DNA of 64,000 bases, from positions 138,639,172 through 138,703,171 of the forward strand of contig NC_058337.1 in the NCBI RefSeq assembly GCF_905475395.1. Direction: 5' to 3'. The position numbers and the translations under genes were made by a program. Shown here piece after piece: positions 38,727 through 62,163 of this stretch (its first letter is position 1; each line of letters begins with the position of its first letter). The notes below the pieces were generated by a model. The model was not told the origin of the DNA. It was given only the letters and a program-made list of their open reading frames with translations, and ran no database searches. This DNA comes from Chrysoperla carnea (Eukaryota; Arthropoda; Insecta; Neuroptera; Chrysopidae).

Positions 38727-38729
38727 AAT

Positions 38730-41141: not shown

Positions 41142-41230
41142 TAAAAGCAGCAAGTTTCTGAAGCTAAAAGTGATGTGGCTATAGTTTTCCGGACAGTTAA
41201 TAATAGACAATATTAACAAGAAGGATAAAC

Positions 41231-41518: not shown

Positions 41519-41565
41519 GGTACGCGTGGATTAAGGAAAATGCAGGTAATTTTTCTATTTCTACT

Positions 41566-42377
41566 ATGTGTAAATTGATGAAAGTATCACGTAGTGGTTA
41601 TTATGAATGGTTAAATAATTCTGGATGTAATAGGGATCGAGAAGATCATGAATTAACAAACAAAATTGAAATTATCTTTAAAGAAGGTAGAAGTAAGTAC
41701 GGCACTAGATCTATTAAAAAGGAGCTATCTAGACAAAGTATCATTGTTAGTAGGAGGCGCATTGCAAAACTAATGAAAAAAGCGAGTCTAATATGTAAAA
41801 CTAAGCGTAAATTCAAAGCAACTACTGACGCTCATCATAACAAGCAAATTGCTCCGAGTTTATTAGAGAGAAATTTTACAGTTCCTGAGGCTAATTGTTA
41901 TTGGGTTGGAGATATAACTTATATTCCAACTAGTGAAGGGTGGTTATATTTAGCAACGGTTATTGATCTATTTTCTAGAAAAATTATAGGATGGTCTATG
42001 AGTAATAATATGAAGGCTGATTTGGTTAATAATGCTTTATTAATGGCAATATGGCAGCGTAAACCAGCAAAAGGTCTTATTTGTCATACTGATAGAGGAA
42101 GCCAATATTGTTCTGATAGTCATTTAAAAATTTAAAACAACATGGTATCAAACAGAGTATGAGTCGTAAAGGAAATTGTTGGGATAATGCTGTTGCTGAG
42201 AGTTTCTTTCATACTATAAAAACAGAATTAATGTATCAACATAAATTTAAAACAATGGAGGAGGTCAAACATACCATATTTGAATATATAGAGGTGTTTT
42301 ACAACCGTATAAGAATGCATTCTGCTCATGATTATTTATCACCAGTAAAATACGAAGAAAGACACAAATGTGCTTAA
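41566..42377 (+). pseudogene. IS3-family OrfB integrase-type transposase, frame broken
   Basis: rve-type DDE domain. First Asp in CYWVGDITYIPTSEGWLYLA, second in CHTDRGSQYCS, Glu in [19 protein letters not shown]. The frame stops at 42135 (SDSHLKI) and the remainder (from 42159, [10 protein letters not shown] to EERHKCA) is in another phase, so a single frameshift near 42125 separates the second Asp from the Glu. Confidence 0.87.
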
Positions 42378-42407
42378 ACAACTGTCCGGAAAAGTGTTGA
42401 CAGATCA

Positions 42408-42600
42408 ATAAGCAAAAAGTGATTAAAGGATTTACATCAAAATATCATATTATAAAACTTGTTTATACAGAAGAATTTGTTGAAATCAAAGAAGCTCTTG
42501 CTAGAGAAAAAGCTTTCAAAAATGGAATCGTAGTTGGAAAATAAAATTGATAGAAAGTATTAATCCTAAATGGAACGATTTAGGCGAATGTATTTCTGGA
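42408..42600 (+). pseudogene. GIY-YIG nuclease-like protein, C-terminal remnant
   Basis: Encodes KVIKGFTSKYHIIKLVYTEE, then ALAREKAFK, and, after a frame slip near 42525, WKIKLIESINPKWNDLGEC, the C-terminal half of the small UPF0213/GIY-YIG proteins. The catalytic GIY-YIG half is missing, replaced by the IS3 element. Confidence 0.75.
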
Positions 42601-42701
42601 TTCCCGCCTACGCGGGAATGACATAAAAGTCATGAAACACTGCTGGATAAGCTCGCGAGATGACAAGAACAAAACTAATCCACGTAACAATACATCAAAC
42701 A

Positions 42702-44419: not shown

Positions 44420-45002
44420 TTATGTAGTTAAGTGGGATAGGGTTAACACCCTCGCCTTTAGGCGAACACTTTAGTATAATCTATCTAATAGGTAACTAGA
44501 GGAAGAGATGGAATATAGGAGAGGGTCTCATAGCCTGTATGATTTAAAGTATCATATAGTGTTTTGTACAAAGTACAGGTATAGAGTTTTAACTGGGCAA
44601 ATAGCAAGTAGAGCAAGGGAAGTAATTCAGGAAATATGTGCAGCTAATTACATAGATATAATTAGTGGCAGCATAAGTCCTGATCATGTTCATATATTAG
44701 TATCAGTTCCACCGAGTATCTCAATATCTAAGGTGTTACAATATATTAAAGGAAAGAGTAGTCGTAAATTGCTACAGGAATTTGAACTACTTCGTAAGCG
44801 ATATTGGGGTCAACATCTTTGGGCTAGAGGGTATTTTGTTGTTACAGTTGGTAATGTGAATTCAGAAGCAGTACAGAAGTATATAGAGCAACAAAAAGAA
44901 TTTCATAAAAAAGATGATTTTAGAATATCAGAGTTTTAGCGTTTACGCTTTTAATCTGCTTTGCAAGCGTAAACCAAACTACCGGCTTTAGACGCTAGTA
45001 AT
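44420..45002 (+). mobile_element. IS200/IS605-family element, copy 4, intact
   Basis: 583 bp, same size as copy 1. Ends TTATGTAGTTAAG... and ...GCTAGTAAT, followed by TGAT. It lies 28 bases upstream of the RelA/SpoT-type gene. Confidence 0.9.
44508..44939 (+). CDS. tnpA: IS200-type HUH transposase TnpA
   Basis: 143 residues with His60/His62 and Tyr125 (AVQKYIEQQK) all present. It differs from the copy at 8341 by only a few residues. Potentially functional in a bacterium. Confidence 0.9.
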   Translation: MEYRRGSHSLYDLKYHIVFCTKYRYRVLTGQIASRAREVIQEICAANYIDIISGSISPDHVHILVSVPPSISISKVLQYIKGKSSRKLLQEFELLRKRYWGQHLWARGYFVVTVGNVNSEAVQKYIEQQKEFHKKDDFRISEF

Positions 45003-45030: not shown

Positions 45031-45225
45031 ATGTTAATTATGCAAGGTATAAATACTAATGATTTACATAATATCATAGCTGCTATTAGCACTAAACTAT
45101 ATAAAGCTAATATAGCTGCTGAAATACATTACAGATTAAAATCTCTTTGTTCTGTTTTAAAGAAGATATTAAAAAAAGCTACCACTGTGAAAGAATTGAA
45201 GGACCCAATTGCTTTTAGGATTATA
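45031..45225 (+). pseudogene. RelA/SpoT-type (p)ppGpp synthetase-domain gene, 5' half
   Basis: 65 codons from ATG 45031: VLKKILKKATTVKELKDPIAFRII, matching the start of a RelA/SpoT synthetase domain (short alarmone-synthetase type). The gene is interrupted at ATTATA by the Polinton. The other half begins at 61585 in the same phase. Rickettsia genomes often carry several such spoT-like fragments and small genes. Confidence 0.8.
45220..45225. repeat. 6-bp target-site duplication ATTATA (left copy)
   Basis: Identical to 61579-61584. Six-base duplications are characteristic of Polinton integration. Confidence 0.95.
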
Positions 45226-46570
45226 AGTAGAAGAGTCACAGCGGTCCTGGCGCAGTTTGACCTCAAGTAACCCCGTTTTGATGGTACACTTTTCAAAAAA
45301 GGGCAAACCTAGGTGAATGTTGGAAACCTCGGAAGTTGGATGACGTCATTGACCAATAGTAAATCAAGATGGCGTTGGGAGGTGTGGTGGGGCGTGGCTG
45401 ACAGAGCGTTAGTGTGTTTCTTGGCGGAAGTGGAGCTTAAAGTGGTGGGCGTGGTTTTGGAAGTGGGGGTTAAAGGGGGTTAAAGGGGGGGGGGGGGGGG
45501 AATTGGACGTTAGATGAGATAATCGAGCCCACTTTCAACCCCAAAGTATGGTACACTTTCCCAAAAAGGGCAAACCTCGGTTGAATGCGAAGTTGGAGGG
45601 GGGGACGTCATTGGCTTTGACCAATAGTAGCGCTGTAAAAATCAAGATGGCGTCGGGAGGTGTGGTGGGGGAAGGAATGGCTGCCTAAGCATTGATGACG
45701 TCATTGGCTTTGACCAATAGTGGCGGAGAGTGAACGGGGGGCGGGACGTTGACATTAGTCAACAATTTTAAAGAATATGTTAATTTGACCTTGAAAAATA
45801 TTGTAATTTGACACTTTAAATATACATGATAAAATTCAAGACACGTGACCGGATGTTAATATTTTTTTTTTATTGAATTAGCAATGTAATATGACACTTG
45901 AAATTTACATAATAAAAATACATGTTCAAACTTGTTTGAATGGACTTTGATCTTAAAATAATTTTACACGTGTCAGCTATTCTCAAGAATATGTTAATTT
46001 GACCTTGAAAAATATGATATCATCATCTTATAACAAGTTCAAACTTGTTTGAAATAATTTTACATGTGTCAAAACACGTGACCGGATGTTAATATTTTTT
46101 TTTATTGAATTAGCAATGTAATATGACACTTGAAATTTACATAATAAAAATACATGTTCAAACTTGTTTGAATGGACTTTGATCTTAAAATAATTTTACA
46201 CGTGTCAGCAATTTTCAAGAATATGTTAATTTGACCTTGAAAAATATGATATCATCATCTTGTTACAAGTTCAAACTTGTTTGAAATAATTTTACATGTG
46301 TCAAAACACGTGACCGGATGTTAATATTTTTTTTTATGATTAAGCAATGTAATATGACACTTGAAATTTACATAATAAAAATACATGTTCAAACTTGTTT
46401 GAATGGACTTTGATCTTAAAATAATTTTACACGTGTCAGCTATTCTCAAGAATATATTGAAATAGATTTGACCTTGAAAAATATGATATCATCATCCTGT
46501 TACAAGTTCAAACTTGTTTGAATAAAAATACATGTTCAAACTTGTTTGAACATGTTTAAACTTGTTTGAA
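45226..46570. repeat. Polinton left terminal inverted repeat
   Basis: An outer part of about 550 bp, richer in G+C (GATGACGTCATTGACCAATAG motifs and a long G run near 45487), then three tandem units of about 232 bp starting near 45847, 46079 and 46310 that contain GACCGGATGTTAATA, AATATGATATCATCATC and the near-palindrome TTCAAACTTGTTTGAA. Matches 60251-61578 inverted, with differences mainly in homopolymer length. Confidence 0.92.
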
Positions 46571-46648
46571 TCGCATTAGATCTTAAAATAATTTTACACG
46601 TGTTATGAGATTAGAATAAAGGTTTTATTTAATAAAAATCTTATAAAT

Positions 46649-46679
<31 letters not shown>

Positions 46680-46767
46680 TTAATGATTAAAATTTACATT
46701 TAAAAAAAAATTTACAGAAAAAAATTATTATTATGAATCTGAAAAAACACACAAAGTATTGGTGACA
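46571..46767. other. Polinton sub-terminal AT-rich spacer
   Basis: Contains a T run of about 20 bases near 46650. It lies downstream of the ATPase gene; no gene seen. Confidence 0.5.
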
Positions 46768-47490
46768 CTACAGTTCAATAAATTCATCAAATCCATTCCT
46801 ATAACGACCTGCATTCATAGAGAAATTTTTCATTATTACAACAAATCCATTTGGTGAACTCCAACAATGTCGACATAAATCATGAAATTTTTGAAAATTC
46901 ATATCAGAGCCAACATGATCGTAGAATATGTGTTTTAGATTCATTTCGTCCGTTTTGAATAACACCAAGCAATTAACATTGTCCCTTATGTTATGCTTTG
47001 GAACACGTGCGTAGCTCTGACATAGATAGAAACAATCAATTTTTCGATGACGGCCCATACTAAAGTATTCTCTAATTCTCTGTTGTGAATGACAGCTCAC
47101 ATCATCAAAAATGAAAAGACTTTTTTCTCGAGCTTCATTCGGACTAAGAATTTCACTAGTATCACTAAATGGAAAATATCCAACCCCTTCCACTAATTTT
47201 AAAGTCTCTTCTAGTAATTGATATTTCGGTTGGTAAAGAGATTTACTGTACACATAAATGTTTTCAAAGCGTAAACCGTTTTCATCATAAATTAAATTCA
47301 ACATAACATTGGTTTTACCACAACCACTAGGGCCACATATTATTGTTCGTAGTGAATCTGAAAATAGAGGACCATGATATGTTTGTGTGTCTGTATTTTC
47401 TGGTATTAAATTTTCAACACTCAGAGCGGGTTGTTGTTTATGAAAACGCATTTTTAATGTAACTAAGACTAAAATTTCAATACAACCCAT
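46768..47490 (-). CDS. Polinton FtsK/HerA-type packaging ATPase
   Basis: 240 residues (a later Met, giving MRFHKQQ, is the more usual family start). Walker A GPSGCGKTNVMLNL and Walker B SLFIFDDVSC; then RKIDCFYLCQSYARVPKHN with the sensor region. It is the A32-like genome-packaging motor of Polintons and related double-jelly-roll viruses. It diverges from the PLA2-like gene across about 50 bases that must hold both promoters. Confidence 0.9.
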   Translation of the reverse strand: MGCIEILVLVTLKMRFHKQQPALSVENLIPENTDTQTYHGPLFSDSLRTIICGPSGCGKTNVMLNLIYDENGLRFENIYVYSKSLYQPKYQLLEETLKLVEGVGYFPFSDTSEILSPNEAREKSLFIFDDVSCHSQQRIREYFSMGRHRKIDCFYLCQSYARVPKHNIRDNVNCLVLFKTDEMNLKHIFYDHVGSDMNFQKFHDLCRHCWSSPNGFVVIMKNFSMNAGRYRNGFDEFIEL

Positions 47491-47542
47491 TTTATAAACA
47501 TTTAAATATATGTGAACTTAATTGTTTAAATCATTTAGTAGT

Positions 47543-48307
47543 ATGTCACATCAGAAGCAACAACACAAAGGAAGAGGTATTGTTAACACACTTATAAATA
47601 AATTACCGTTTGAGTTACACATACCAACTTATCAATATTGTGGACCTGGAACTAAGCTGGCTGAACGATTACCGCGTGGTGATAAACCAAAAAACGCATT
47701 GGATCAGGCTTGTATGGTACATGATATAGCATATTCAAAAAGTAAAGACTTAAAGGAGCGTCATCTAGCAGATAAACAATTAGCTGAAGCCGCTTGGAAA
47801 CGTGCCAAAGCATCTGATTCAACAATTGGTGAAAAAGCATCCGCTTTATTCGTTACAGGCGCCATGAAGGCAAAAACTTCACTTGGTATGGGATTAAAAA
47901 AGAAAAAGATGAAAAAGACAAAGAAAACTATAAACTTTACAGCATCAGTGCGAAAGGCACGAAATGCATTGAAAAAATCACAACCAACGGACTTAAAAGC
48001 AGCAGTAAAAATAGCAAAAGCAGCCGTGCGAGGTCAACGTATTAAAGCACCCACACGTGTAATACCAGTTCCAAAGTCTGGTGGTATACTTCCATTAATT
48101 CCAATATTCGCAGGACTCTCTGCTTTAGGTGCTTTGGCTGGTGGAGCGTCGGGTATTGCTAAAGCCGTTACAAATTATAAAAGTGCTCGTGATCAACTTA
48201 ATGAGAGTCAAAGACACAACAAAACAATGGAAGCTATAGCAATGGGTAAAGGCTTGTATTTAAGACCATACAACAAAGGCATGGGATTATATTTAGCAAA
48301 AAACTAA
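47543..48307 (+). CDS. Polinton PLA2-like virion protein
   Basis: ATG at 47543 (MSHQKQQ). The domain near residues 25-60 has YCGPGTKLAERL and the catalytic HDIAYS, the Ca-loop and His-Asp dyad of the phospholipase A2 fold found in parvovirus VP1 and described in adintovirus-like elements, where it is thought to help breach membranes during entry. It is followed by basic stretches (KKKKMKKTKKT) and a hydrophobic Gly/Ala segment (GLSALGALAGGASGIA). Confidence 0.8.
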   Translation: MSHQKQQHKGRGIVNTLINKLPFELHIPTYQYCGPGTKLAERLPRGDKPKNALDQACMVHDIAYSKSKDLKERHLADKQLAEAAWKRAKASDSTIGEKASALFVTGAMKAKTSLGMGLKKKKMKKTKKTINFTASVRKARNALKKSQPTDLKAAVKIAKAAVRGQRIKAPTRVIPVPKSGGILPLIPIFAGLSALGALAGGASGIAKAVTNYKSARDQLNESQRHNKTMEAIAMGKGLYLRPYNKGMGLYLAKN

Positions 48308-48351
48308 TTGAAACGCTACCACGTAGAGCGCTTTACGATACGGAGCTACGT

Positions 48352-48666
48352 GTGTATGCTAAACAATTTAAAATTCCGTATTTTCGTGGTGTTTTTATGC
48401 GTGACACCCTACCCAAAAGACCATATAAATATGAAACAGGAATTATCAACCATGATGTATCCAAAAATAGTGGCACACACTGGACGGCATATAAAAAGTA
48501 CAATCGAAGTGTCATCTATTATGATAGTTTTGGAAATTTGAGACCGCCAGTGGAAATCATTAAATATTTTAACGGATGTGACATTCAATATAATTTTGAT
48601 AGGCAACAACAGTTTAATACTCCGATTTGTGGACATCTATGTATACAATTTTTATTAAATAAATAA
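48352..48666 (+). CDS. Polinton adenain-like cysteine protease
   Basis: The frame starts at GTG 48352 but is open further upstream (the legible protein extends into the overlap with the PLA2-like gene: LYDTELRVYAKQFKIPYFRG), so the start is uncertain. Motifs: GTHWTAYKK (catalytic His), YYDSFGNLRPP (Asp) and PICGHLCIQFLL (Cys), the triad order of adenovirus/Ulp1-type proteases that mature capsids. Confidence 0.85.
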   Translation: MYAKQFKIPYFRGVFMRDTLPKRPYKYETGIINHDVSKNSGTHWTAYKKYNRSVIYYDSFGNLRPPVEIIKYFNGCDIQYNFDRQQQFNTPICGHLCIQFLLNK

Positions 48667-48795
48667 ACCAGCAAGTCTTGTATTTACTTCATTCAAAATC
48701 AAGATGTCATACATGCTTACATTTACAGGGAATAGCTCTTTTTAACAACAGACTATTCTCCACCAATTGAATTAGATAAAAATGAAAATTATGAA

Positions 48796-49380
48796 ATGGG
48801 TCTAGTAGATTTACAAGGGTACAATTCCATACCTAATATACACAGCTACAATAACATGTTTTATTACGATGATAAAGTCATAGAAATACCACCAGGATCT
48901 TATGAAGTTGAAGATATTGAACGTTATTTAAAAGAAGCTGTAGGTGATGAGGTGACACTACAAATAAATGCTAATACAAATACATTAAAATGTGAAATAA
49001 AGTGTACTGTGATAATAAACTGTGAACCATCAGATTCTGTTTGTCGCATGTTGGGATTTAATAAACGAAAACTAGATGCAAATAAAAGGCATGAAAGTGA
49101 CAATACAGTTAATATTTTACCTGTAGAAACAATTTATGTTCAATGTAATATTACAAATGGATCGTATCATAACAATGAAATCAGTCACACATTGTTTCAT
49201 TTTTCACCAAATCTACCACCAGGTTATAAAATTGTGATACATCCTATGAATGTTATTTATTTACCAATCAACTGTCGAACTATAAGCAACATTACGCTCA
49301 TGTTAGTGGACCAAACTGGTAAATTAGTTAACTTTCGAGGTGAAAACATTACAATTGGATTACACTTGAAAAAGATATAA
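48796..49380 (+). CDS. Polinton minor capsid (penton) protein
   Basis: 194 residues. Features of the family: YYDDKVIEIPPGSYEVEDIE near the N-terminus, RMLGFNKRKL, ETIYVQCNI, SHTLFHFSPNLPPGYKI and VDQTGKLVNFRGENITIGLHL at the C-terminus. This is the single-jelly-roll vertex protein that completes the capsid built by the major capsid protein. The frame may extend upstream of ATG 48796. Confidence 0.82.
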   Translation: MGLVDLQGYNSIPNIHSYNNMFYYDDKVIEIPPGSYEVEDIERYLKEAVGDEVTLQINANTNTLKCEIKCTVIINCEPSDSVCRMLGFNKRKLDANKRHESDNTVNILPVETIYVQCNITNGSYHNNEISHTLFHFSPNLPPGYKIVIHPMNVIYLPINCRTISNITLMLVDQTGKLVNFRGENITIGLHLKKI

Positions 49381-49559
49381 TGGGTTTTGTATTTAATCAT
49401 CCTACACGTTATGCCGGAGGCAGTGTTTCTACAAACCGTCTGATAAAACAACCTCAATCGAGCAACAATAGAATAAAAAATCACAAACAGTTATCATACG
49501 AAAATAGAAAATTTCTTCAATCAATTGGCTTAAAACTAAAACGGCCAATTGTTGGGTAA
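49380..49559 (+). CDS. Polinton small basic protein, 59 residues
   Basis: ATG overlaps the stop of the minor capsid gene (TAATG). Sequence MGFVFNHPTRYAGG at the start, a Ser/Asn/Lys/Gln-rich middle and ENRKFLQSIGLKL at the end; a FLxSxGL C-terminus is recurrent in small Polinton proteins as I recall, but I cannot confirm this here. Basic, perhaps a core or scaffold protein. The tight overlap supports that it is real. Confidence 0.6.
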   Translation: MGFVFNHPTRYAGGSVSTNRLIKQPQSSNNRIKNHKQLSYENRKFLQSIGLKLKRPIVG

Positions 49560-49634
49560 AATTTAGTTGCTGGTTTAAAATAAAGAAATCAGTTATACGA
49601 ATAAAATTCAATTGTATTAAGAAGAAGAAGAAGA

Positions 49635-50831
49635 ATGGCAGAAATACTAGAAGTGACCAATGTACCTGAGTACGATAATGTTATTACAGGACTAGAGTAT
49701 CACAACCACCAAGCTTATAATTCATCGAAATTTGAATCAAGCGATGAGAGTAGAATTTGCATTCAATCACAAGACTTGTACACATTACCAAGTGAAAGTG
49801 TTTTAAATATCGAAGATCAAGTGACTGATGATGATGATACAAATACAGCCAGCTTCATATCGAATGCTATATCATTTATGTTTCATGAAATTCGTTATGA
49901 AATTGGTGGTAAGGTAATTGATGTGATTAACAATGTAGGCATCGTTAGCACTATAAAAAACTATCTATCCCTAAATCAAAATCAAAGTAAAGCTTTAGAG
50001 AATGCTGGCTTTGGTGAAAATTTTAAAAAGAATGCTGCTGGTTACTTCAATGTTCGTATTCCATTGAAAATGTATATGGGTTTTTTTGAAGATTATCCTA
50101 AAATTCTCGTAAACATGAAACAAGAAATCGTTATTGTTCGTGCAAATGATGATATTAATTGTTTTACCTCAACTGCCGCAACAAGCAAACCTAAAATTAA
50201 AATCAACAAATTAGAATGGTGTGTTCCATACGTTAAAGTGTCTGATAAAATGCGAGTCAAATTATACAACTTAGTCAATCAAAATGATGATTTGAGGTTA
50301 TGGTTTCGATCAATGGAATGTCTACTTATACCAGAACTACCATTAACTGATAGACATGTGTGGAGTGTTAAAACTAGTGTAGAATGTCCTAACTACGCTG
50401 TTATCTGTTTCCAAACAAATCGTGACCGCAACATTTTAAAAGATTCCAGTCAGTTTGACCATTGTAACATAACAAATTTGAAAGTCTATTTAAATGGTGA
50501 AGCCTACCCATATGTGAATTTGAATCTAAATTATACAAATAATCAAACAGCGTTACTGTATGAAATGTATTGTAATTTTCAAAAATCGTACTATAGACGC
50601 TCTATAACAGAACCATTGCTAGATAAAGAAACGTTTATAAATAAATCACCTCTATTTGTCATTGACTGTTCTAAGCATCCAGAGTCACTTAAATCTACAA
50701 CAGTCGACTTGCGCGTTGAGTTTGAAGCTAGTGTTAATTTCCCAGCTAAAACGCGTGCGTATTGTATAGTGTTCCATGATCGATTATTTAAATACAATCC
50801 ACTCACGAATATTGTGAATAGAGTGGTTTAA
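49635..50831 (+). CDS. Polinton major capsid protein (double jelly-roll)
   Basis: 398 residues starting MAEILEVTNVPEYDNVITGL. It shows the Polinton capsid pattern: FMFHEIRYEIGGKVIDVI after an early beta-rich region, ISTIKNYLSLN-type segment, LEWCVPYVKVSDKMRVKLY, LIPELPLTDRHVWSVKT, the mid-protein YPYVNLNL, and C-terminal RAYCIVFHDRLFKYNPLTN. Expected to form trimeric pseudo-hexamers of an icosahedral shell. Confidence 0.85.
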   Translation: MAEILEVTNVPEYDNVITGLEYHNHQAYNSSKFESSDESRICIQSQDLYTLPSESVLNIEDQVTDDDDTNTASFISNAISFMFHEIRYEIGGKVIDVINNVGIVSTIKNYLSLNQNQSKALENAGFGENFKKNAAGYFNVRIPLKMYMGFFEDYPKILVNMKQEIVIVRANDDINCFTSTAATSKPKIKINKLEWCVPYVKVSDKMRVKLYNLVNQNDDLRLWFRSMECLLIPELPLTDRHVWSVKTSVECPNYAVICFQTNRDRNILKDSSQFDHCNITNLKVYLNGEAYPYVNLNLNYTNNQTALLYEMYCNFQKSYYRRSITEPLLDKETFINKSPLFVIDCSKHPESLKSTTVDLRVEFEASVNFPAKTRAYCIVFHDRLFKYNPLTNIVNRVV

Positions 50832-50832
50832 A

Positions 50833-51321
50833 ATGGCGTACATAGTGGACGTACAGGGTTTCAAAGTAAACAATGAATTCATCGTTAAAGAACTTAGTTT
50901 TGTGGATACAAATGGGAACCATTTTGGACATTATGTATTCAAACCACCATTTCCATTTAACACATTAAGTGATTCAGATAAGAAACAAACAATTTGGCTC
51001 TCAAATAATTACCATGGCTTATACTGGAATCAAGGAGCCACCGATTATTGCGAGTTATCAACCATTTTAACACATATTGCTAATCATAATGTAATATACT
51101 GCAAAGGTGAAGAAAAGAAAATTTGGATTAAAAAATTAATTCGAAATTCAACAAGGGCAGTCCACATTGAAAATTTGGATGGTGGAAAACCACTTCATAG
51201 GAATGACAGTGTATCAAAAGCTCTATGCATCTATCAACATAAACATTGTACCACAAATATTATTATGTATTTATTACATTATTTTTTTAATAGATCTTTA
51301 TACGGAGGTGCTTGTTGTTGA
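50833..51321 (+). CDS. Polinton conserved uncharacterised protein
   Basis: 162 residues, ATG one base after the capsid stop. IVDVQGFKVNNEFIVKELSF, HYVFKPPFPFNTL and LYWNQGATDYCEL recall an uncharacterised protein found in many arthropod Polinton-like loci. The first strand with an early Asp and the later acidic residues would be compatible with an RNase H-like/exonuclease fold, but that is speculation. Cys/His pairs near the C-terminus (YQHKHCTT, GGACC). Confidence 0.55.
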   Translation: MAYIVDVQGFKVNNEFIVKELSFVDTNGNHFGHYVFKPPFPFNTLSDSDKKQTIWLSNNYHGLYWNQGATDYCELSTILTHIANHNVIYCKGEEKKIWIKKLIRNSTRAVHIENLDGGKPLHRNDSVSKALCIYQHKHCTTNIIMYLLHYFFNRSLYGGACC

Positions 51322-51579
51322 TAAATTAGTGTTAATGATTAAAAAAGTTTTAACAATAAATAATATTAAAAAATAAAATAATATTTTGTATTTTGTTTTA
51401 ATCTAAAATTGTAATTTTTTTTAAATAAAATTTTTTTTTATCTTATCTGTAGTACAAGTTGATTTATTATTCCTTATAAAGAGCATATTATATAGGTTGA
51501 TTGATGATACTTGTTAGGTTATTAAGCGCTGTTTATCAACTGTATAGGTCATTTAACTTGTGAGCTTTCATGTGATAAC

Positions 51580-52554
51580 ATGCTTCAGACAACGAAACAG
51601 CTAGCTAAGTTGAGCGATATTATACAGAAAAAGTATAACGCACTCAAAGCTGATGAACAAAGAGCGACCATTTCATTAGAAAAAACATTTAAGCCCATCA
51701 CTGATCCGCTGAATCAGCTAGTAGAAAAACAAGAGAACGAAAACGATTTTACTCGAATTAATATAAAACGCAAGATAGAAGATGATACCTTAGAAGACAA
51801 TAAAGATGAACTATTAAATTATACGCCAATGAAGGCTCGAAAATTATTTGAAGATACTCCAGTAGTCACAAAACAAAATCTATCAGACACCTATGAGGAT
51901 GAGGTATTACACACTCCTGATGTTGTATTTAGGGAGGTTATAAAATCACAAGAGAATAATCATCATGCACTTCAACATTTTACAAAGACTTATGGAGATG
52001 TGGCTGGTAAATACATTTATTTTATATTATCGAATAAAGATGATAAGCTTATCGATAATATTTACGGATTACGTTATGATAATGCTGCTGATAGATTATA
52101 TGTAGGTAATTCAGTTGTTTACATTAAGCATAACAATATACAAGTCAACGAAAAATGGTATGACGGAACATCAGGTTTATATGAGCTTTTAGTAAAACAG
52201 ATACCAAAAAATTATTCAGAGCAAGACATGCGTAACTATTTGGAAATTGTAACATCAACAAACGCTAATAGACGGAATTATGACTCTCAGGGTCAAATTC
52301 AAGGAACTAAAAGTTTTAAGTATAAAAATATCATTAAGAAACATCTATACCCATCGGCTCCTGCTTCTGGTAGCGGTCTAACATTATCACGAGTAACTAA
52401 TAATCCCATAGACTATGTGTACTGGAATACAATCGATGAACTTTGTGACAGATTACGGCTGTTATGCGCATCACGTGACGCGGGAAATTTCAGCCATCAA
52501 AATGAAATCAATAGTTTGATACAAGAGTTAAGGGAAGAAAATATAATATACTGA
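51580..52554 (+). CDS. Polinton conserved protein with DUF8207-type C-terminal domain
   Basis: 324 residues. N-terminal coiled-coil-like, charged region (LAKLSDIIQKKYNALKADEQ; KRKIEDD), a middle MKARKLFEDTP, then a conserved C-terminal domain: NIYGLRYDNAADRLYVGNS, WYDGTSGLYELLVKQIPKNY, TSTNANRRNY and YVYWNTIDELCDRLRLL. This domain is recurrent in Polinton/retroelement-associated arthropod proteins. Role unknown; perhaps a minor virion or regulatory protein. Confidence 0.6.
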   Translation: MLQTTKQLAKLSDIIQKKYNALKADEQRATISLEKTFKPITDPLNQLVEKQENENDFTRINIKRKIEDDTLEDNKDELLNYTPMKARKLFEDTPVVTKQNLSDTYEDEVLHTPDVVFREVIKSQENNHHALQHFTKTYGDVAGKYIYFILSNKDDKLIDNIYGLRYDNAADRLYVGNSVVYIKHNNIQVNEKWYDGTSGLYELLVKQIPKNYSEQDMRNYLEIVTSTNANRRNYDSQGQIQGTKSFKYKNIIKKHLYPSAPASGSGLTLSRVTNNPIDYVYWNTIDELCDRLRLLCASRDAGNFSHQNEINSLIQELREENIIY

Positions 52555-53432
52555 AAACCATACCGGTTTCTAAACAGACCAGTATTAAACAGGTCAAAAC
52601 CTGTATTAAACAGATACAGACCAGTATTAAACAGGTTAAAACCAGTATTAAACAGGTACAGGCCAGTATTAAACAGACCTGTTTACATACAGACCTGTTT
52701 AGATACAGATCTGTTTAGATACAGACCTGTTTAGAAAGAGACCTGTTTAGATACAGACCTGTTTAGAAACAGACCTGTTTAGAAACAGACCTGTTTAGAA
52801 AGAGACCTGTTTAGAAAGAGACCTGTTTAGATACAGACCTGTTTAGAAAGAGACCTGTTTAGAAAGAGACCTGTTTAGATACAGACCTGTTTAGAAAGAG
52901 ACCTGTTTAGAAACAGACCTGTTTAGAAAGAGACCTGTTTAGAAAGAGACCTGTTTAGATACAGACCTGTTTAGAAACAGACCTGTTTAGAAAGAGACCT
53001 GTTTAGAAAGAGACCTGTTTAGAAAGAGACCTGTTTAGAAACAGACCTGTTTAGAAACAGACCTGTTTAGATACAGACCTGTTTAGAAAGAGACCTGTTT
53101 AGATACAGACCTGTTTAGAAAGAGACCTGTTTAGATACAGACCTGTTTAGATACAGACCTGTTTAGAAACAGACCTGTTTAGAAACAGACCTGTTTAGAA
53201 AGAGACCTGTTTAGATACAGACCTGTTTAGAAAGAGACCTGTTTAGATACAGACCTGTTTAGAAACAGACCTGTTTAGAAACAGACCTGTTTAGATACAG
53301 ACCTGTTTAGAAAGAGACCTGTTTAGATACAGACCAGTATTAAACCGAGCTGTTTCTTATTAGACCTGTTTAGATTTTATATTTATTATATGTAATTATT
53401 TAAATTACATCATAACCTATTGAGAACTCATT
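52555..53432. other. Non-coding stretch dominated by a minisatellite
   Basis: No gene. The first 120 bases hold four imperfect units with CAGTATTAAACAGGT, whose TTAAACAGGT is the inverse of the ACCTGTTTA core of the minisatellite that follows. After 53331 a degenerate tail leads to the next ATG. Confidence 0.8.
52675..53330. repeat. 16-bp minisatellite, about 41 copies
   Basis: The unit AGACCTGTTTAGAWAS occurs in three variants (ending ATAC, AAAG or AAAC) in an irregular order, in strict 16-bp register for about 656 bp. Inside the Polinton between two capsid-side genes. Confidence 0.95.
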
Positions 53433-54128
53433 ATGAATGGTATAGATAAATTTGGAAGTCCTCTCTTCAAAAATTATCAAGATTCATATACATCACATAA
53501 TGAATCAATACTTCGATGTAATGGCGGAAATAATTGCTTCGATGCAAAACAAAGACGAATTGTGAATGTTGGGAAACCTATAAATAAGCAAGATGTTGTG
53601 AACTTGGAAAGTCTTGGGCAGTGTTTGTCATTAGATGATGAAGAATCATACTTTGACGCAAAAAATAAAAAAATAAGTAATGTAGCAAGTCCAGAATTTT
53701 CAACTGATGCTGTGGATTTATACACCCTTATCAATCATGTTAGTGATAAAATCAATAACACTACTGAAATATTTAACGAGAGTCTGAAAAAATTAAATGG
53801 TTATTTTCGAATATCAATACGTAATACACAACCAACAAAATTTTATTCAGATCCAACTGCTGATTTTGCATGGTATATATTGGAAAATAATACAAGAGTT
53901 TATGTATTTAGATTCCCAATCTCTGTGATGATACATCATTTAGATATTAAACCAACATACTGTGAGGTCTTCAAAAACGATAGTATTATAGATAAAAATA
54001 AACTTAATACATTAAAATCAAACGATTATTTAACGTTTGGTATTCCTAAAAGTTTCATGAATACAAACTCCGATTCCATGTTACTATATGTTGACATTGG
54101 TATAAAATATAAATTAATAGATGGATAA
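53433..54128 (+). CDS. Polinton fibre/spike-like protein (candidate)
   Basis: 231 residues. Two tandem N-terminal units, FDAKQRRIVNVGKP...DVVNLESL and FDAKNKKISNVASP...DAVDLYTL, resemble the I-x-N-V-x-x-P...D-A-V repeats of phage tail fibres and other viral shafts. A short helix (INHVSDKINNTTEIFNESLKKLN) could trimerise, and the C-terminal half (from GYFRISIRN) is beta-rich, as a receptor-binding head would be. Its last codons overlap the integrase start. Function inferred from repeat pattern only. Confidence 0.5.
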   Translation: MNGIDKFGSPLFKNYQDSYTSHNESILRCNGGNNCFDAKQRRIVNVGKPINKQDVVNLESLGQCLSLDDEESYFDAKNKKISNVASPEFSTDAVDLYTLINHVSDKINNTTEIFNESLKKLNGYFRISIRNTQPTKFYSDPTADFAWYILENNTRVYVFRFPISVMIHHLDIKPTYCEVFKNDSIIDKNKLNTLKSNDYLTFGIPKSFMNTNSDSMLLYVDIGIKYKLIDG

Positions 54129-55044
54129 AAAACGAATTGTTGTGAATGAGCTACATAAACCAGCTCGACGTAATTATCCAAGAAGGCGTGTAATCATTAA
54201 GGGACTCAATGATTTATTTCAAGCTGATTTGGTAGAAATGATCCCGTATGCAAGACAAAATACCAACTTTAAATATATTTTGGTGGTCATCGATTGCTTC
54301 TCCAAATATAGCTGGGCTATGCCACTAAAGTCCAAGAGTGCGGTGGATGTCACTAATGCCATGGAACAGATTATAAAAGATCGTACACCGAAAAACCTTC
54401 AAACTGATAATGGTACGGAATTTTATAATGAAAAATTTAAGAGATTGATGAAAGAGTACAACATAAACCATTATTCTGTATATTCAACTAAAAAGGCGTG
54501 TATTGTGGAAAGATTTATACGCACACTGAAATCGATGATGTACAAACATTTCAGTTTGTATGGTAATTATAAATGGATAAAAGTATTACCGGAATTGATT
54601 AAACAGTACAATAATTCATACCATCGGACAATCAGGATGAAGCCATCACAAGTCAATACACGAAACGAAAAACGGATTTTAAAAGATTCATACAATCATA
54701 TTAAGATGGTGGGTCCAAAACAAAAATTTACAGTTGGCGATCATGTAAGGATAAGTAAATTTAGAACGACGTTTGCTCGTGGTTTTCATCCATCATGGAC
54801 ACCAGAAATATTCACCATTCGCGAGGTGAAACTTACAAACCCAAGAACATATTTACTGAAGGACTACAACAACGAAGATATAAAGGGTGGTTTCTATGCC
54901 GAAGAATTACAAAAAGTTCACGATCCAAACATTTATTTAGTGGAAAAGGTCTTAGCTAAACATGGATCCAAAGTTAAAGTCCGGTGGTTAGGGTTCGACT
55001 CTTTACACGATTCATATATTGATAAAAAAAGTCTCCTTTTATAG
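54121..55044 (+). CDS. Polinton integrase (rve) with chromodomain
   Basis: 307 residues. DDE core: Asp in LFQADLVEMIPY, Asp in QTDNGTEFYNE, Glu in CIVERFIRTLKSMM. A SH3-like DNA-binding segment follows (KFTVGDHVRISKF) and then a C-terminal chromodomain, VEKVLAKHGSKVKVRWLG, which in related integrases reads histone marks to choose targets. The ATG overlaps the preceding gene. It would have made the 6-bp duplication seen at the ends. Confidence 0.92.
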   Translation: MDKKRIVVNELHKPARRNYPRRRVIIKGLNDLFQADLVEMIPYARQNTNFKYILVVIDCFSKYSWAMPLKSKSAVDVTNAMEQIIKDRTPKNLQTDNGTEFYNEKFKRLMKEYNINHYSVYSTKKACIVERFIRTLKSMMYKHFSLYGNYKWIKVLPELIKQYNNSYHRTIRMKPSQVNTRNEKRILKDSYNHIKMVGPKQKFTVGDHVRISKFRTTFARGFHPSWTPEIFTIREVKLTNPRTYLLKDYNNEDIKGGFYAEELQKVHDPNIYLVEKVLAKHGSKVKVRWLGFDSLHDSYIDKKSLLL

Positions 55045-55265
55045 TGGAACGTTTTATGAACATACTTGTAACAATAAAAAATTTGTTATAGTGGACCGTT
55101 TTTGTGCACATACTTGTGATTTATAAAAAAAAAATAAAACATATCACATTGTAAAAATATTATTTTTATTGTAAAATTTTATCTATAACATATAAAAACA
55201 GAGTTGTATTATAATAATATTTTAAAAATATATATTTATAAATTATCGAAAATACATTATAATTA
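55045..55265. other. AT-rich intergenic stretch between convergent genes
   Basis: AATAAA-type polyadenylation signals can be read on both strands (for example ATAAAA near 55130 and ACAATAAAA near 55068). No gene. Confidence 0.45.
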
Positions 55266-55287
55266 TTATTCTGAAAAGTGTCCATTG

Positions 55288-55318
<31 letters not shown>

Positions 55319-55712
55319 TATCTTTCTTCATAAGATAATTTTCAATTATTTCTTTCACTTGAACATAGTCGGATAACTCGTCTGATGTAAATACACTGTA
55401 GTAAGATTGTTCAAAAATGGATAGTCCTACAATTCCATCTTTTTGTCCAGAGTGGATATTTTTTAAAATCCAGTTCCAAATTTGTTTGTCTTCATCGTCT
55501 GACGATGGGGAAAATTTCACTTCTAAGTCCATTTGTTCTACCTTATCAATAAGGTAGTTTAAAGTTTCCGGTCGACCACATTTAATTGCCATATTAACTA
55601 ATGTTTTAAAATACTTTGTTAACACATTGTTTAAAGTACTTAAACTACAATTATCTTTAATCATATTAACAATACAGTTGTTATCACTATTATGATTACC
55701 AAAGTCTTGCAT
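55266..55712 (-). CDS. Polinton acidic hypothetical protein
   Basis: 148 residues ending in a run of ten Asp before NGHFSE. The central part (TLVNMAIKCGRPETLNYLID) looks like one ankyrin-like helical pair. The Asp run is encoded by a (TCA)n-type trinucleotide tract, so its length probably varies. No function assigned. Confidence 0.5.
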
Positions 55713-55933
55713 TTTGTATGTTTAAACTAACACTAAATTGTTTTCTATAATAATTCAACCTAACTATCAGTTTTTTGACACCCCCACCACTACTCTATCA
55801 ATTGTTCATGCGCACTACTCTATCAATTGTTTGTACACCTATCACAATACCGAACCACTTTGAGGATCATCACAACAACAACAGCAGGGCACATTTCTGA
55901 AACAACAGCAAAAATTAGCTAAATATTAAAAAC

Positions 55934-58900
55934 ATAAAATATAAAATACTTACACTCAACAAATAATGCTATAGTGGCCCCATGGTTTTGTTTCACATGA
56001 ATTGTGAGTAATGTGTCGTTTTTGGTCAAATGGTGATAAGCCCACTTTCTGCTGTTTGATGGTATGTAAGCGGTGTCGCTTGGATTGGATGCTTTGCTGA
56101 ACACGGTAAAAGTTACGGTTCTCAAGCAAACACCGCTTATAGTCCTCAAAAGTAAGTTTTCGGATAGCTGACTTCTTGAGACCCTTGGATCGTTTAGTCT
56201 CTTTTTTATTTTGCACCCGAATAGCATACATTTTGCTACGTAATCCGACAAATTCTAGCATAACATCACCATTATTTTCATCGGACATTAAACCCTTGAC
56301 TTTCTTATTACGTAGTGGTATACCATAGACGTTGTCGGGTGCATAGTCAGCCGTATCAAAACGATTAATATCCTGTTTCATGACCTCATAGACGTCAGTA
56401 TTTCTCACGCTATAAATTAGACTATCGGTGTCTGTGTATAATAACCTGACATTTGTGGGGTTGTACCGTTGGTACATGTAGTTGTAGTGGAAGTCATACA
56501 CAAACGTTTTCGATATGTCTAAAATTGTGAAGCCTATGTAGATGGGTTTGTTGAAACGTATCTGTGATTTTTTCATTTCAACAATACTGACGTCATTGTC
56601 GAGCACCATCACACTGTGAAAATTGGGATTGGCAATTAATTTCTTCACACCATGTTTTCCATCCCAATTTTTTCGTATGTACACAACCCGATGTTTCCTC
56701 ACATTCTCCATGGTTTTACCGAAGATGGCATTAATCATGAGTTTGAATAATGCTTTTTCAAACTCATTTGAGGCGTTCTTGCGCATCTCGGTATTGAAAT
56801 CAATATATGGTTTCAACCATGCAGATTGATCGAATTGTAACACACGGTGGTATTTTGTTACCTTAACACCGAGTTGTGTATACAGTTTTAAATTCCTGTA
56901 GTGCACGACATAGTTGGTCTTATTGTAAAGGGTTGACAGAAGATATTTTTGTTTTGATCCAGGTGGTTTCGTTGTCTCCGGACATGGCGGTAAATCGCTA
57001 AAGTTATCATGTAGATGTTGGGGTATTTCAAGGTCTACTTCTAAAATGTACCCGACTGGTGAATCATCTGCAACATCCTCGATGTTTGGTGTGTCGACCC
57101 ACTTAAAATTTCCTGTTGGTAGGTATCCACACATTGCTGCACCATATAGGTTCACCACATCATAATACATAAGGTAGACATCTTCTTGAGTTTTATCATA
57201 CCCCTCTTCCATGTACTTATTGTTTGCCTTAGCATAGCGATTAGAACATTGACTTACACCGCCTCTGATTCCTTTCTCGATAAACAACAAGTCATCAATA
57301 TCCGTGAACAATTCCAATTTGATATTGGTGTATTTCAACATGGCGCTCCACGTATAGCCAGGAAGTGTGTAATAGTGACTAGGATCGAGACTATAGCTAT
57401 GAATACAAGTGTTACGGAAATTTTCAAAAATATCCGCAAGTAGTAACACATCAGTTTTCATATACAGGTCTGAATAATCACCTAGTGTATGTAAATTGAA
57501 TGTGTTCCATACCTGTATCGCATGGTTATAATCCTCATCCGTTATGTGTTCATCTGTTAACACACTGTAGAACGCCTCCTTTGGTGGTAATTTTGTCTCT
57601 TGGAGACGTCCCCAGCTACTCATGTATTCATATGGAAATACACCTTTTCTCGTTAGCAATTGAAATTGTTCATCATTACTGACCTATAAAAAATTAAAAA
57701 ACAAATTACAACCCTGTATTAAAAATTAATTATTTTTTATCATTTACCTCTTTATGTAAAATGGATTTTTTATCATTATCTAAATATGAGGCCAGATTTT
57801 CCAACTTGTCTGCGAGAAATCGGAAGGAATCAATGAATCTTAATTGAATGTCCGAGACGTGCTTTGTGAAACTGATGTACTTTTCTTTGTTGATGGGCAA
57901 CACATCAACTTGACCGTCGATTTCCGTCAGCAGAGCTTCAATAATAAAATGCGAATCGTATCCACTTAAGTTGTGCATCACAACAGGTATCACCCTTGAA
58001 TCTTGATAATTCAGATTACAAAATTGGTGTGCTGCTCCACGGTAGATACCTAAAATAGATTAATATAAAATTAGATGAAATTAAAAAATAATAAATAAAT
58101 TACATTACCTGTGCGATGTGAATGGTCGCGAACACGTATGGAATTGGATACGAAATCTTTATCACAAATGTGACACTTCTCTGCTGACATAAAATCCAGT
58201 TCTTGTTCGACGGTGAGCGGATACATTGGTTTAACGTGTTTTATTTTTTGCTCTAATGAGTACGCTACTTGTTCCAGTTCATGAACAAACCACTTGACAC
58301 AATCAGCACCACGGTATGCCTTATAAAACGATTGGTTGGGATCATGGGTACAATGAACATAGTAACCTACACTGTAGGGTACATGTTTTTGAATATTTTT
58401 TGTATAAGACCCATGATCCATTTCCATGTCTTCATGATGTTGTGGTACCAATAGTGCCTCAAAGTCAGCGTACACCATATACTCAACACGTTCCTTGCTG
58501 TTGAAATCTTTGAACTCAACGAACCGCTCGTCATCAGTTTCAGGCATTCGTACCCGCACTGCTTCTTGCTCACCACAATTTACTGAATGCTGTTGGAGTT
58601 TGCCTTCTGTAGCAAAATAGTTGAGACATCGATCACATAAAAATATTTTATGCTCGAATTTTGTTACACCCGATCGAGCCAACTTTGCTAAATTTTTTAT
58701 CCAGCAAAAGTGGTGACTGTTCCCATTCTCCACAGCCAATAGATGAATTTTCTTCCCCGCAGTGTTCGAACTAACGCGTACAGGGAAAATTTCTAAATCA
58801 CGTAGAAACGTAACTTTGTAGCCGTACACGTTAATCGATAGCTGCGGGTTCATCTTTTCAAATTTATTAATTTGATCCAGAGACATGGGAAACTTTAATC

Positions 58901-59837
58901 CATCATATTTTAAATGATATTTATAGTGCGGGTACTTAGTTAAACGTTGAGGATCCTTTTCAACCGGGTAAAGTGCTGACATTATCGACCATAAAAAGCA
59001 ATGTTGGTCTTTATTCTGGACATTAATCACAGCTTTTCTACATTTAATTGCAGATGGTAGTTCGCAAAATGTTCCAGCTGTGATCGGAGAGTACTTATTC
59101 ATGTGGACTCGAATATTTATGATCATGTCAAGAGCCCAACCGCTATCGCGTTCCTGGAATTCTTCCAATTTTTTCAACAAATAGTTTTTGACATGATCAA
59201 TGTACCACTCCTGCATGTCCGTTGTCAGATACATTTCCTTAGCCGACGTTATAAAAGTTTTCAAATCCTCCTCTTTGGTGCTGGGCTTAATGAAATTGCC
59301 CGTGAACATAATATACACCTGAAATAAAATCTCATTAGACTATTTAAATTATAAATCTTAAATTTTACTTACCTTGAGGGGATGATTCACTAGCTCACGC
59401 CGAACGTGTCTTCTAAACATTGGAAATGCCCGGTTGAAAAATATATTTGGATCTTTATAATCCAAATTGGTAATCATACCAGTCTTCACCCTGCCCTGGT
59501 GGTGGGTTTCAATTGTCTCCCAGATTAGATGTCGATTTTGTTTTTTGGTGACACCACCACCTTGCTTAACTAAATCTAATCGCAGTCGGTGAAGTTGCCG
59601 CTGGTATGATTTACAAAGTCCAATATTAGCTTCAAGACGCAGAGGATTTTCTTTCTTTAACATCAACATCTTTTTGAATAAGCGGATGTTCTGCTTATTA
59701 AGTATCATCCATCGCTCAGCTTCCTCCACCGTCTTGATGAGCCTCAACGCTCTCTCCACTTTCTTCATCATATCAGTGCTACCACCTTGAGGTACCACGT
59801 TTATCGTCTGCATAACATTTTGTTCGTAGGTGTCCAT
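55934..59837 (-). CDS. Polinton protein-primed DNA polymerase B, intron-containing
   Basis: Open stretches at about 59837-59358, 59318-58071, 57993-57730 and 57659-55956, in order on the minus strand. Exonuclease motifs [13 protein letters not shown] and [14 protein letters not shown]; polymerase motifs A ([16 protein letters not shown]), B ([15 protein letters not shown]) and C ([13 protein letters not shown]); a Cys/His-rich CHICDKDF...DHSH motif lies before the second gap. The gaps (roughly 40-75 bases) have GTAAGT/GTAATG/GTAAAT donors and YYYAG acceptors, as expected for short spliceosomal introns; another intron-like tract lies near 55915-55955. A protein-primed polB is the replicative enzyme of Polintons and copies the inverted-repeat-ended genome. 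Confidence 0.9.
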
Positions 59838-60043
59838 CTTTCAAAAAATTATATTTTAGTTTCACAATAATATTTAAAAAATTTTACACTTACCGTTATA
59901 TTTTCAAATACTAAGCAAAATATACGTTACCGAACGTTCAACACTAAAGTTAACTTACAACTGAGTAATATTTGTTTTTTGTATAAAATATATAGACTAA
60001 GTTTAGAATAATAAATATACCAAAACAAAAAAAAAAAACAAAA

Positions 60044-60081
<38 letters not shown>

Positions 60082-60250
60082 TAACGTAAAAAATATATGC
60101 GGAAAAAACTAACTGAAGCAAAGGTGAATTTCAAAAGAGATACTTCAACAGCTACGTACATCACTTTTTATAGCATTATCCCCACCACTAAAAAAGTTGT
60201 AATTTGATATTTTTATAATCGTAATTCAAACTAATTATTTTTTCTTGGAA
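59838..60250. other. Polinton AT-rich spacer with (TAA)n microsatellite
   Basis: A (TAA)n run of about 12 units at 60041-60076 and an A run before it. No supported gene; the frame through it is low complexity. Probably holds the polymerase promoter and leader. Confidence 0.7.
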
Positions 60251-61578
60251 TTCAGACAAGTTTAAACATGTTCAAACAAGTTTGAACATGTTCAAACAAG
60301 TTTGAACTTGTAGCAGGATGATGATATCATATTTTTCAAGGTCAAATTAACATATTCTTGAGAATAGCTGACACGTGTAAAATTATTTTAAGATCAAAGT
60401 CCATTCAAACAAGTTTGAACATGTATTTTTATTATGTAAATTTCAAGTGTCATATTACATTGCTTAATCATAAAAAAAAAATATTAACATCCGGTCACGT
60501 GTTTTGACACATGTAAAATTATTTCAAACAAGTTTGAACTTGTAACAAGATGATGATATCATATTTTTCAAGGTCAAATTAACATATTCTTGAAAATTGC
60601 TGACACGTGTAAAATTATTTTAAGATCAAAGTCCATTCAAACAAGTTTGAACATGTATTTTTATTATGTAAATTTCAAGTGTCATATTACATTGCTAATT
60701 CAATAAAAAAAAAAATTAACATCCGGTCACGTGTTTTGACACATGTAAAATTATTTCAAACAAGTTTGAACTTGTTATAAGATGATGATATCATATTTTT
60801 CAAGGTCAAATTAACATATTCTTGAGAATAGCTGACACGTGTAAAATTATTTTAAGATCAAAGTCCATTCAAACAAGTTTGAACATGTATTTTTATTATG
60901 TAAATTTCAAGTGTCATATTACATTGCTAATTCAATAAAAAAAAAAAATTAACATCCGGTCACGTGTCTTGAATTTTATCATGTATATTTAAAGTGTCAA
61001 ATTACAATATTTTTCAAGGTCAAATTAACATATTCTTTAAAATTGTTGACTAATGTCAACGTCCCGCCCCCCGTTCACTCTCCGCCACTATTGGTCAAAG
61101 CCAATGACGTCATCAATGCTTAGGCAGCCATTCCTTCCCCCACCACACCTCCCGACGCCATCTTGATTTTTACAGCGCTACTATTGGTCAAAGCCAATGA
61201 CGTCCCCCCCTCCAACTTCGCATTCAACCGAGGTTTGCCCTTTTTGGAAAAGTGTACCATACTTTGGGGTTGAAAGTGGGCTCGATTATCTCATCTAACG
61301 TCCAATTCCCGCCCCCCCTTTAACCCCCTTTAACCCCCACTTCCAAAACCACGCCCACCACTTTAAGCTCCACTTCCGCCAAGAAACACACTAACGCTCT
61401 GTCAGCCACGCCCCCACCACACCTCCCAACGCCATCTTGATTTACTATTGGTCAATGACGTCATCCAACTTCCGAGGTTTCCAACATTCACCTAGGTTTG
61501 CCCTTTTTTGAAAAGTGTACCATCAAAACGGGGTTACTTGAGGTCAAACTGCGCCAGGACCGCTGTGACTCTTCTACT
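60251..61578. repeat. Polinton right terminal inverted repeat
   Basis: Reverse complement of 45226-46570 almost throughout. Same three internal units with TTCAAACAAGTTTGAA and the G+C-richer outer 500 bp with CCAATGACGTCATC. Differences are in homopolymer runs (for example the C run at 61303) and a few substitutions at the inner edge. Confidence 0.92.
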
Positions 61579-61584
61579 ATTATA
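61579..61584. repeat. 6-bp target-site duplication ATTATA (right copy)
   Basis: Immediately follows the terminal CTTCTACT. See 45220-45225. Confidence 0.95.
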
Positions 61585-62163
61585 GTTAATAAAAAAGAAG
61601 ACTGTTATAAAGTATTAGATATTATTTACAATATTTATTCTGTTGATGTAAAGAAGTTTAAAGACTATATTACTAATCCTAAGGATAATGGCTACCGTTC
61701 CTTACATGTCATAATTAATATCTATAAACGTAATATAGAAATACAAATACGTAGCAGAGAGATGCATAATACAGCAGAATTTGGTACAGCAAACCACGAT
61801 GAATATAAAAAGACACAGGAAACAAGATTAAGAAAGCTACTCTCTAATGATAGGTTTAATACAGCTTATATTAATATTAACATCAATAATGCATATAATA
61901 TTTTGAGTCGATTTAATTGGACTATGTCACAACTCCTTGCATATGAGCAGATACTTGAGAATCTTTGTCATCATTTGGATTGCCGTAACAGAACATGCGA
62001 AAAGCGAAAAGTGGACTATCCATCGGATGGCTTTTATCTGATTCGCAATTTTGCTAAATGCAAAACTCCTGAAAGTGTTATGTGTACTAATATCAGCGAA
62101 CTGTTGAAAAAGGATTTTTGTAGTCATTTTGTTTGTATAAACCACTGTAGTTTTGATAAATAA
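61585..62163 (+). pseudogene. RelA/SpoT-type synthetase-domain gene, 3' part
   Basis: 193 codons in the phase of the 5' half: VNKKEDCYKVLDIIYNIYSV, DYITNPKDNGYRSLHVII (the synthetase YRSLH signature) and IEIQIRSREMHNTAEFGTA. The last 100 residues after RKLL form a separate segment with HHLDCRNRTCEKRKVDYPSD and a Cys/His-containing end (FCSHFVCINHC); I do not recognise it. Its frame also reads back into the Polinton terminus, but that is fortuitous. Apart from the insertion the gene looks open. Confidence 0.8.

Follow-up and report, generated by a model that had tools for sequence, protein, structure and literature searches.

A Polinton within a split RelA/SpoT-domain gene of probable nuclear Rickettsia DNA on chromosome 1 of the lacewing Chrysoperla carnea

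Polintons (Mavericks; Polintoviricetes) are virus-like, self-synthesising mobile elements of eukaryotes with AG...CT ends, and a target-site duplication of 6 bp is a feature of the family. The Polinton gene set is well described (PMC11071308). For bacterial DNA in an insect chromosome, the closest described system is the large-scale nuclear Wolbachia insert (‘nuwt’) of Drosophila ananassae, inside which numerous host retrotransposons have integrated (PMC4299567). Rickettsia infections of lacewings have also been described, Torix-group strains among them, and the word ‘nuclear’ is absent from the main texts of both papers (PMC5557424; PMC7762206). Here we analyse a 64,000-bp stretch of chromosome 1 of the green lacewing Chrysoperla carnea (the window; C1:138639172-138703171), 1.3 Mb from the end of this 139,979,878-bp chromosome (C1), in which a Polinton interrupts a rickettsial RelA/SpoT-domain gene. 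The element resembles other Polintons in its long inverted repeats, AG...CT ends, 6-bp duplication, rve integrase, B-family polymerase, A32-type ATPase and DJR capsid protein. No structural difference from the family was found; what differs is the target, which is bacterial DNA that appears to be lodged in a nuclear chromosome. The locus shares with the D. ananassae nuwt the presence of endosymbiont DNA in an insect chromosome with host elements inside, whereas here the DNA came from Rickettsia, a DNA element that is virus-like and codes for a capsid is among the invaders, and one edge is resolved to about ten bases, with the other bracketed, in a chromosome-scale assembly. Unlike Torix-group symbionts, the DNA studied here appears to be nuclear, and it has broken genes (uvrB and an ABC transporter gene) and inserted host elements. 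The initial annotation, made from the letters alone, had regarded Polinton integration into bacterial DNA as not known to have been described. A search that left out most subscription journals brought up no paper about Polintons within bacterial DNA of the nucleus, about Rickettsia DNA with Polintons or about a lacewing with a large insert of Rickettsia DNA. The novelty remark has to be softened, since host retrotransposons in nuclear Wolbachia DNA were already known; of a Polinton in such a setting we found no earlier report.

The Polinton occupies positions 45226-61578 of the window (16,353 bp, no strand assigned; AGTAGAAGAG...CTCTTCTACT), or 45220-61584 when both copies of the duplicated target are included. 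Direct reading of the letters placed the left junction at 45225/45226 (...AGGATTATA|AGTAGAAGAGTC...) and the right junction at 61578/61579 (...GACTCTTCTACT|ATTATAGTT...). The AG...CT ends are bordered immediately outside by ATTATA on either side (45220-45225 and 61579-61584, both read on the plus strand), a perfect 6-bp duplication. The left terminal inverted repeat (45226-46560, plus strand, about 1.3 kb) contains 232-bp tandem repeats, and its counterpart on the right lies at 60240-61578 (minus strand). The main arms of 167, 107 and 846 nt are 99-100% identical. An alignment of the two sides shows 4 substitutions and 7 gap columns in the first 1,230 bases, and the similarity collapses past approximately 1,340. 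The closest other copies of the left repeat, among the best 40 of 342 candidates with the window’s own ends excluded, reached 96% identity over 1,001 bases. Because the terminal repeats are nearly identical and the closest other copies are only 96% identical, the insertion looks recent on sequence grounds. An exact 6-bp duplication was present in all ten Polinton copies with both ends in hand (the window copy and nine others), and chance is thus not a reasonable explanation for it. The size, termini, inverted repeats, exact ATTATA flanks and recent age given in the initial annotation were all borne out by these readings.

The interrupted gene continues in register on the two sides of the element, as had been proposed. 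Its 5′ part (45034-45225, plus strand), identified by tblastn and the RelA_SpoT profile, ends in the left ATTATA and corresponds to profile positions 2-30, a match that is weak when taken alone (E = 0.02, under the Pfam cut-off). The 3′ part (61579-62163, plus strand) covers profile positions 31-112 (E = 1.2e-23) and is 77% identical at the amino acid level to Rickettsia nzgw532 (locus L049). When GTDB genomes were scanned with the right piece, eight loci matched, six of them from Rickettsia. In five of the Rickettsia loci (L049-L053, from three genomes and probably including paralogues) the gene is uninterrupted, and the two halves meet there with an overlap of exactly 6 bp. The 6-mer at these empty sites, which come from related bacteria and not from the same species, is ATTATA in four loci and GTTATA in one. 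In tblastn the left half was 65-72% identical to L049-L051 and 43-45% identical to L052 and L053, and the alignment stopped at the site. The sixth Rickettsia locus (L054) stops short of the site, and the remaining two (L055 and L056, other bacteria) match the right half only. The 6-bp duplication and the uninterrupted relatives, each with the single 6-bp site that the initial annotation had suggested looking for, support its claim of a real, duplication-generating integration into DNA of rickettsial origin. Among GTDB genomes, those closest in the split gene are Rickettsia nzgw532, RiCNE and Pante1, which we take to belong to the Torix group. Judged by this one gene, the nearest relatives of the donor would be Torix-type Rickettsia.

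Five genes of the element were named by Pfam. These are the packaging ATPase (Pox_A32; 46768-47490, minus strand, E = 3e-9), a phospholipase A2-like domain protein (47522-48307, plus strand, E = 7e-15), the DJR major capsid protein (49635-50831, plus strand, DJR-like_dom, E = 1.3e-95), the retroviral-type integrase (54121-55044, plus strand, rve, E = 3.5e-15) and the B-family DNA polymerase (55956-59318, minus strand). The integrase also matched prototype foamy virus (PFV) integrase chains (best E = 2.6e-9), and its residues D58, D96 and E130 were assigned by eye. The polymerase gene consists of three exon pieces, of which the middle one matched DNA_pol_B_2 (E = 9.4e-9); the flanking pieces matched no polymerase family in Pfam or in further family searches. 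Two short GT-AG introns on the minus strand (58050-58108 and 57684-57747) were recognised by eye, and introns in this gene imply nuclear expression. The open reading frame (ORF) at 48352-48666 (plus strand) may encode an adenain/Ulp1-type maturation protease, as its homologues suggest: 220 were found, and one of the 120 listed is named Ubiquitin-like protease. This ORF had no Pfam match, and its best PDB match was a viral cysteine protease at an E value of only 0.34. The ORF at 48796-49380 (plus strand) lies at the position of the minor capsid protein; its identity is unconfirmed, as it had no match in Pfam or PHROGs and no meaningful match in PDB. The full Polinton gene set announced in the initial annotation was consequently upheld for the ends and most genes, with the minor capsid gene unconfirmed, and the polymerase proved to lie in three pieces separated by two introns. 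Viral contigs were searched for proteins related to the capsid protein, and none was found.

The surroundings of the window were examined in an assembly of 559,487,470 bases in 337 contigs. The genome note for C. carnea inChrCarn1.1 reports 337 scaffolds, 40x HiFi coverage, a contig N50 of 67.8 Mb and Hi-C data, and the words ‘Rickettsia’ and ‘symbiont’ have no occurrence in it (PMC10116181). Twenty 10-kb and 29 shorter samples were taken from C1:138.20-139.98 Mb, and they were complemented by 20 short pieces from the ends of Polintons in other places and by the eight loci from the genome search, giving 77 stretches and 298,106 bases. The window proved to lie in a mosaic of approximately 1.13 Mb (C1:138.272 to about 139.405 Mb; hereafter the tract), made up of rickettsial genes interspersed with host-type retroelements and Polintons. 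At the left edge a host satellite array runs without a gap into the inside of a rickettsial recG at about C1:138,272,170 (sample L077, about position 2170). A scaffolding gap at this edge was considered and rejected, as L077 contains none. The satellite translates as repeats of MSNLIIFGLFIL, and similar repeats, judged by eye, flank Polintons on other contigs (L040 and L042). On the right, sequence of insertion sequence (IS) type extends to 139.4015 Mb, and by 139.410 Mb there is AT-rich DNA with no recognisable bacterial ORFs.

Bacterial genes were recognised repeatedly along the tract, namely those for a XerC/D-type recombinase (138.27 Mb), tolB (138.45 Mb), murJ (138.55 Mb), pcrA/uvrD (138.56 Mb), secA (138.87 Mb), an aminotransferase (139.12-139.14 Mb), thrS (139.30 Mb) and clpX (139.37 Mb), together with an alphaproteobacterial transfer-messenger RNA (tmRNA) at 138.72 Mb. 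Family searches matched nine of ten tract ORFs (XerC/D-type recombinase, murJ, pcrA/uvrD, ygfZ, hpf, a gamma carbonic anhydrase-like protein, aminotransferase and clpX) and all six of another set (recG, sucA, clpX, secA, thrS and tolB); several of these genes score under the curated cut-off, because an inserted element, the edge of a sample or a break in the frame truncates the ORF. One ORF in sample L011 that resembled a bacterial repair protein by eye had no NCBIfam match and was left uncounted, as was the stretch at 30667-32268 of the window. Within the window itself, positions 28336-44412 (no strand assigned) hold a block of bacterial chromosome, identified by NCBIfam, with a short bamD, recN, sucA, sucB, a broken uvrB and a broken ABC transporter gene. 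In this block recN and sucB are open across the whole profile, and sucA is open without the profile ends. A search of the entire assembly found one rickettsial sucA; its 24 further hits, with 28-64% identity, cover pieces only and were taken as exons of the host gene. All nine host-type reverse-transcriptase ORFs that were searched had family matches, seven within the tract and two beyond it, and one of them carries a Pao peptidase domain. Because of the gapless junction with host satellite, the interleaved host retroelements and the single bacterial sucA, the mosaic looks like a nuclear insert and not like a symbiont contig. The earlier claim of a Polinton in DNA of bacterial origin was hence confirmed, and its setting was refined to a probable nuclear insert in an insect chromosome that received several such insertions.

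An artefact of assembly, with symbiont contigs from a living Rickettsia fused to those of the lacewing and bridged by the Polinton through repeat collapse, would fit the reports that lacewings of the C. carnea group carry Rickettsia (PMC5557424; PMC7762206) and the case of the wAna (Wolbachia) assembly, which was once contaminated by Drosophila transposons (PMC5555453). Joins by repeat collapse make no target duplications, however, and four different exact 6-bp duplications occur in the one tract. Two genes are split in register, several host-type retroelement ORFs are interleaved with the bacterial genes, no N occurs in the 298,106 bases of the 77 stretches, the bacterial sucA is single, and the published contigs are HiFi contigs with the N50 given above (PMC10116181). 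We therefore consider such an artefact very unlikely. If the Polinton had entered a Rickettsia chromosome while the bacterium was alive in an insect cell, before nuclear transfer or without any, this would likewise account for a clean duplication at a site in bacterial DNA. Such an entry is opposed by the junction of the tract with host satellite, the several host-type retroelements in the same tract, the sister copies with identical integrase on other lacewing chromosomes and the spliceosomal-type introns of the polymerase gene, and its probability is close to negligible. A bacterial replicon as the host of the insertion was also rejected, given that the window lies within a 140-Mb contig of a 559-Mb assembly. 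The tract is not the self-contained replicon, lacking eukaryotic elements, that a free-living Rickettsia chromosome would be.

The evidence thus makes it highly probable that a large nuclear Rickettsia insert was later invaded by host Polintons through ordinary integrase-mediated insertion. The order, with the transfer first and the Polintons later, is indicated by the introns, by the host Polinton copies and by the further host elements that the tract contains. A large piece of a Rickettsia genome, or several pieces, would have been captured in the C. carnea lineage close to one end of chromosome 1, and the lacewing’s own Polintons, together with non-long-terminal-repeat (non-LTR) and Pao retroelements, would then have inserted into the captured DNA. 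The retroviral-type integrase would have attached the AG...CT ends at cuts in the RelA/SpoT-domain gene with a stagger of 6 bp, and gap repair by the host would have left the two copies of ATTATA. The structure of the element was observed directly, and the enzymology of its insertion is proposed by analogy with the family. The integrase may simply have met the bacterial DNA as chromatin, and insertions into bacterial DNA that carries no needed genes and is under no selection would probably accumulate and persist. Several points weigh against this interpretation. That the Rickettsia DNA arrived in one capture is an inference. Support across the junctions is deduced from the kind of assembly and the lack of any N, not from reads or Hi-C. 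The published assembly totals 560,248,701 bases, and the analysed C3 and C6 are slightly shorter than the published ones, with C1 in agreement to the base, so that the two versions are close and not identical. The figure of 1.13 Mb is the extent of the whole mosaic and not of rickettsial DNA alone, and approximately 0.29 Mb of it was read, the window included. The right edge is bracketed only, between 139.4015 and 139.410 Mb, with the host side judged by composition.

The window copy is one of several Polintons in the tract. Exact duplications flank all four tract copies with both ends sampled (ATTATA, CATATG, TTTACC and ACTTTA) and all six two-ended copies outside the tract. A second gene, encoding the aminotransferase, is split by the Polinton at C1:139121731-139137955, which separates profile positions 25-215 from positions 232-378. 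At C1:138563611 an element, seen at one end only, cuts the pcrA/uvrD frame after at most 116 codons. When five Polinton pieces were searched separately, at least one was contained in nine of the 18 10-kb tract samples (L011-L028), and blastn with the whole element covered about 51.0 of 180 kb of tract samples, a figure that is somewhat high as it includes a 16-bp tandem array also occurring alone (L064 and L068). For the integrase, nine of 17 full-length matches with at least 98% identity lie in the tract, which makes up 0.2% of the assembly and would be expected to hold 0.034 by length, and at identities of at least 90% over at least 200 residues the share is 10 of 31. These counts are lower bounds, based on the best 129 of 1055 candidates, and three of the nine tract matches sit within 11 kb of one another. 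The sister copies that the initial annotation had recommended seeking in the host genome were found, including integrase copies with a 100% identical protein on C5 and C6, and the other copies cluster at 0.9-18 Mb of C6 and 69-74 Mb of C5. The flanks of Polintons outside the tract (L004, L008 and L029-L048; 700-1,500 bp each) contained no recognised rickettsial gene; their longest ORFs were judged by eye, with no family search.

The number of Polintons in the tract, as distinct from the insertion in the window, might instead reflect the duplication of stretches containing rickettsial DNA and Polinton together. Three integrase copies in differing orientations lie within 11 kb (C1:139261463-139272413), as nested or duplicated Polintons, and they speak for such duplication. 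The four two-ended tract copies, in contrast, differ in their duplications and flanks, which means at least four independent insertions; duplication can thus explain part of the count only, and we consider it unlikely as the source of the Polinton richness. Two Polinton ends with matching TTTACC duplications were found 31 kb apart (C1:138778145-138809471), probably belonging to one element that carries nested insertions. Another Polinton family is represented in sample L084 (positions 1-1500; C1:139350001-139351500) by a polymerase-like ORF, which adjoins an integrase at 55% identity and, as judged by eye, an ORF similar to BIR-domain inhibitors of apoptosis.

The abundance of Polintons raises the idea that the tract is a favoured target of this family, beyond what repeat-rich DNA at a chromosome end would attract, for example if the integrase complex seeks the chromatin on foreign AT-rich DNA. 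One non-LTR family, scored for the best 40 of 212 candidates, had six of 40 copies in the tract and many others in similar zones on C6, C5 and C3. The Polinton share (the nine of 17 integrase matches given above, from the best 129 of 1055 candidates) lies above this retroelement share (Fisher p = 0.007). The difference is taken as only suggestive, because both queries were drawn from the tract, the scores cover the best 129 of 1055 and 40 of 212 candidates, and some copies may lie nested in others. Much of the clustering can be put down to elements accumulating generally where DNA is rich in repeats, and a specific preference for the tract is, on this evidence, doubtful.

Some further features were observed in and around the window. 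A rickettsial IS200-type transposase lies just outside the Polinton (44508-44939, plus strand; Y1_Tnp, E = 8.5e-46), and other tract samples contain more copies of it. Several bacterial group II introns are present in the rickettsial tract (window 12005-12238; L013, L017, L019 and L026). At 13506-18003 of the window, a ParB was identified by NCBIfam, and an adjoining ParA-like ORF and two further ORFs were recognised by eye; this is possibly part of a rickettsial plasmid that was captured along with the chromosome. The 16-bp tandem array inside the Polinton (52671-53374, plus strand) has long relatives elsewhere in the tract, in the samples L064 and L068 mentioned above, which suggests that the Polinton picked up, or seeds, a satellite.

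Structurally, the locus clearly exemplifies how a eukaryotic, virus-like element inserts into bacterial genes after transfer from symbiont to nucleus, and related bacteria show the exact empty site. The findings suggest that a biocontrol insect may carry much Rickettsia DNA in its chromosome 1, and that polymerase chain reaction (PCR) surveys for Rickettsia in Chrysoperla could detect nuclear copies. The evidence suggests that the tract was free of Polintons on arrival; in that case every copy now present would be a post-transfer insertion, and the tract would form a natural record of the insertion sites and frequency of Polintons. Were the tract indeed a favoured target, captured symbiont genomes would act as landing zones that help virus-like elements to persist in their host.

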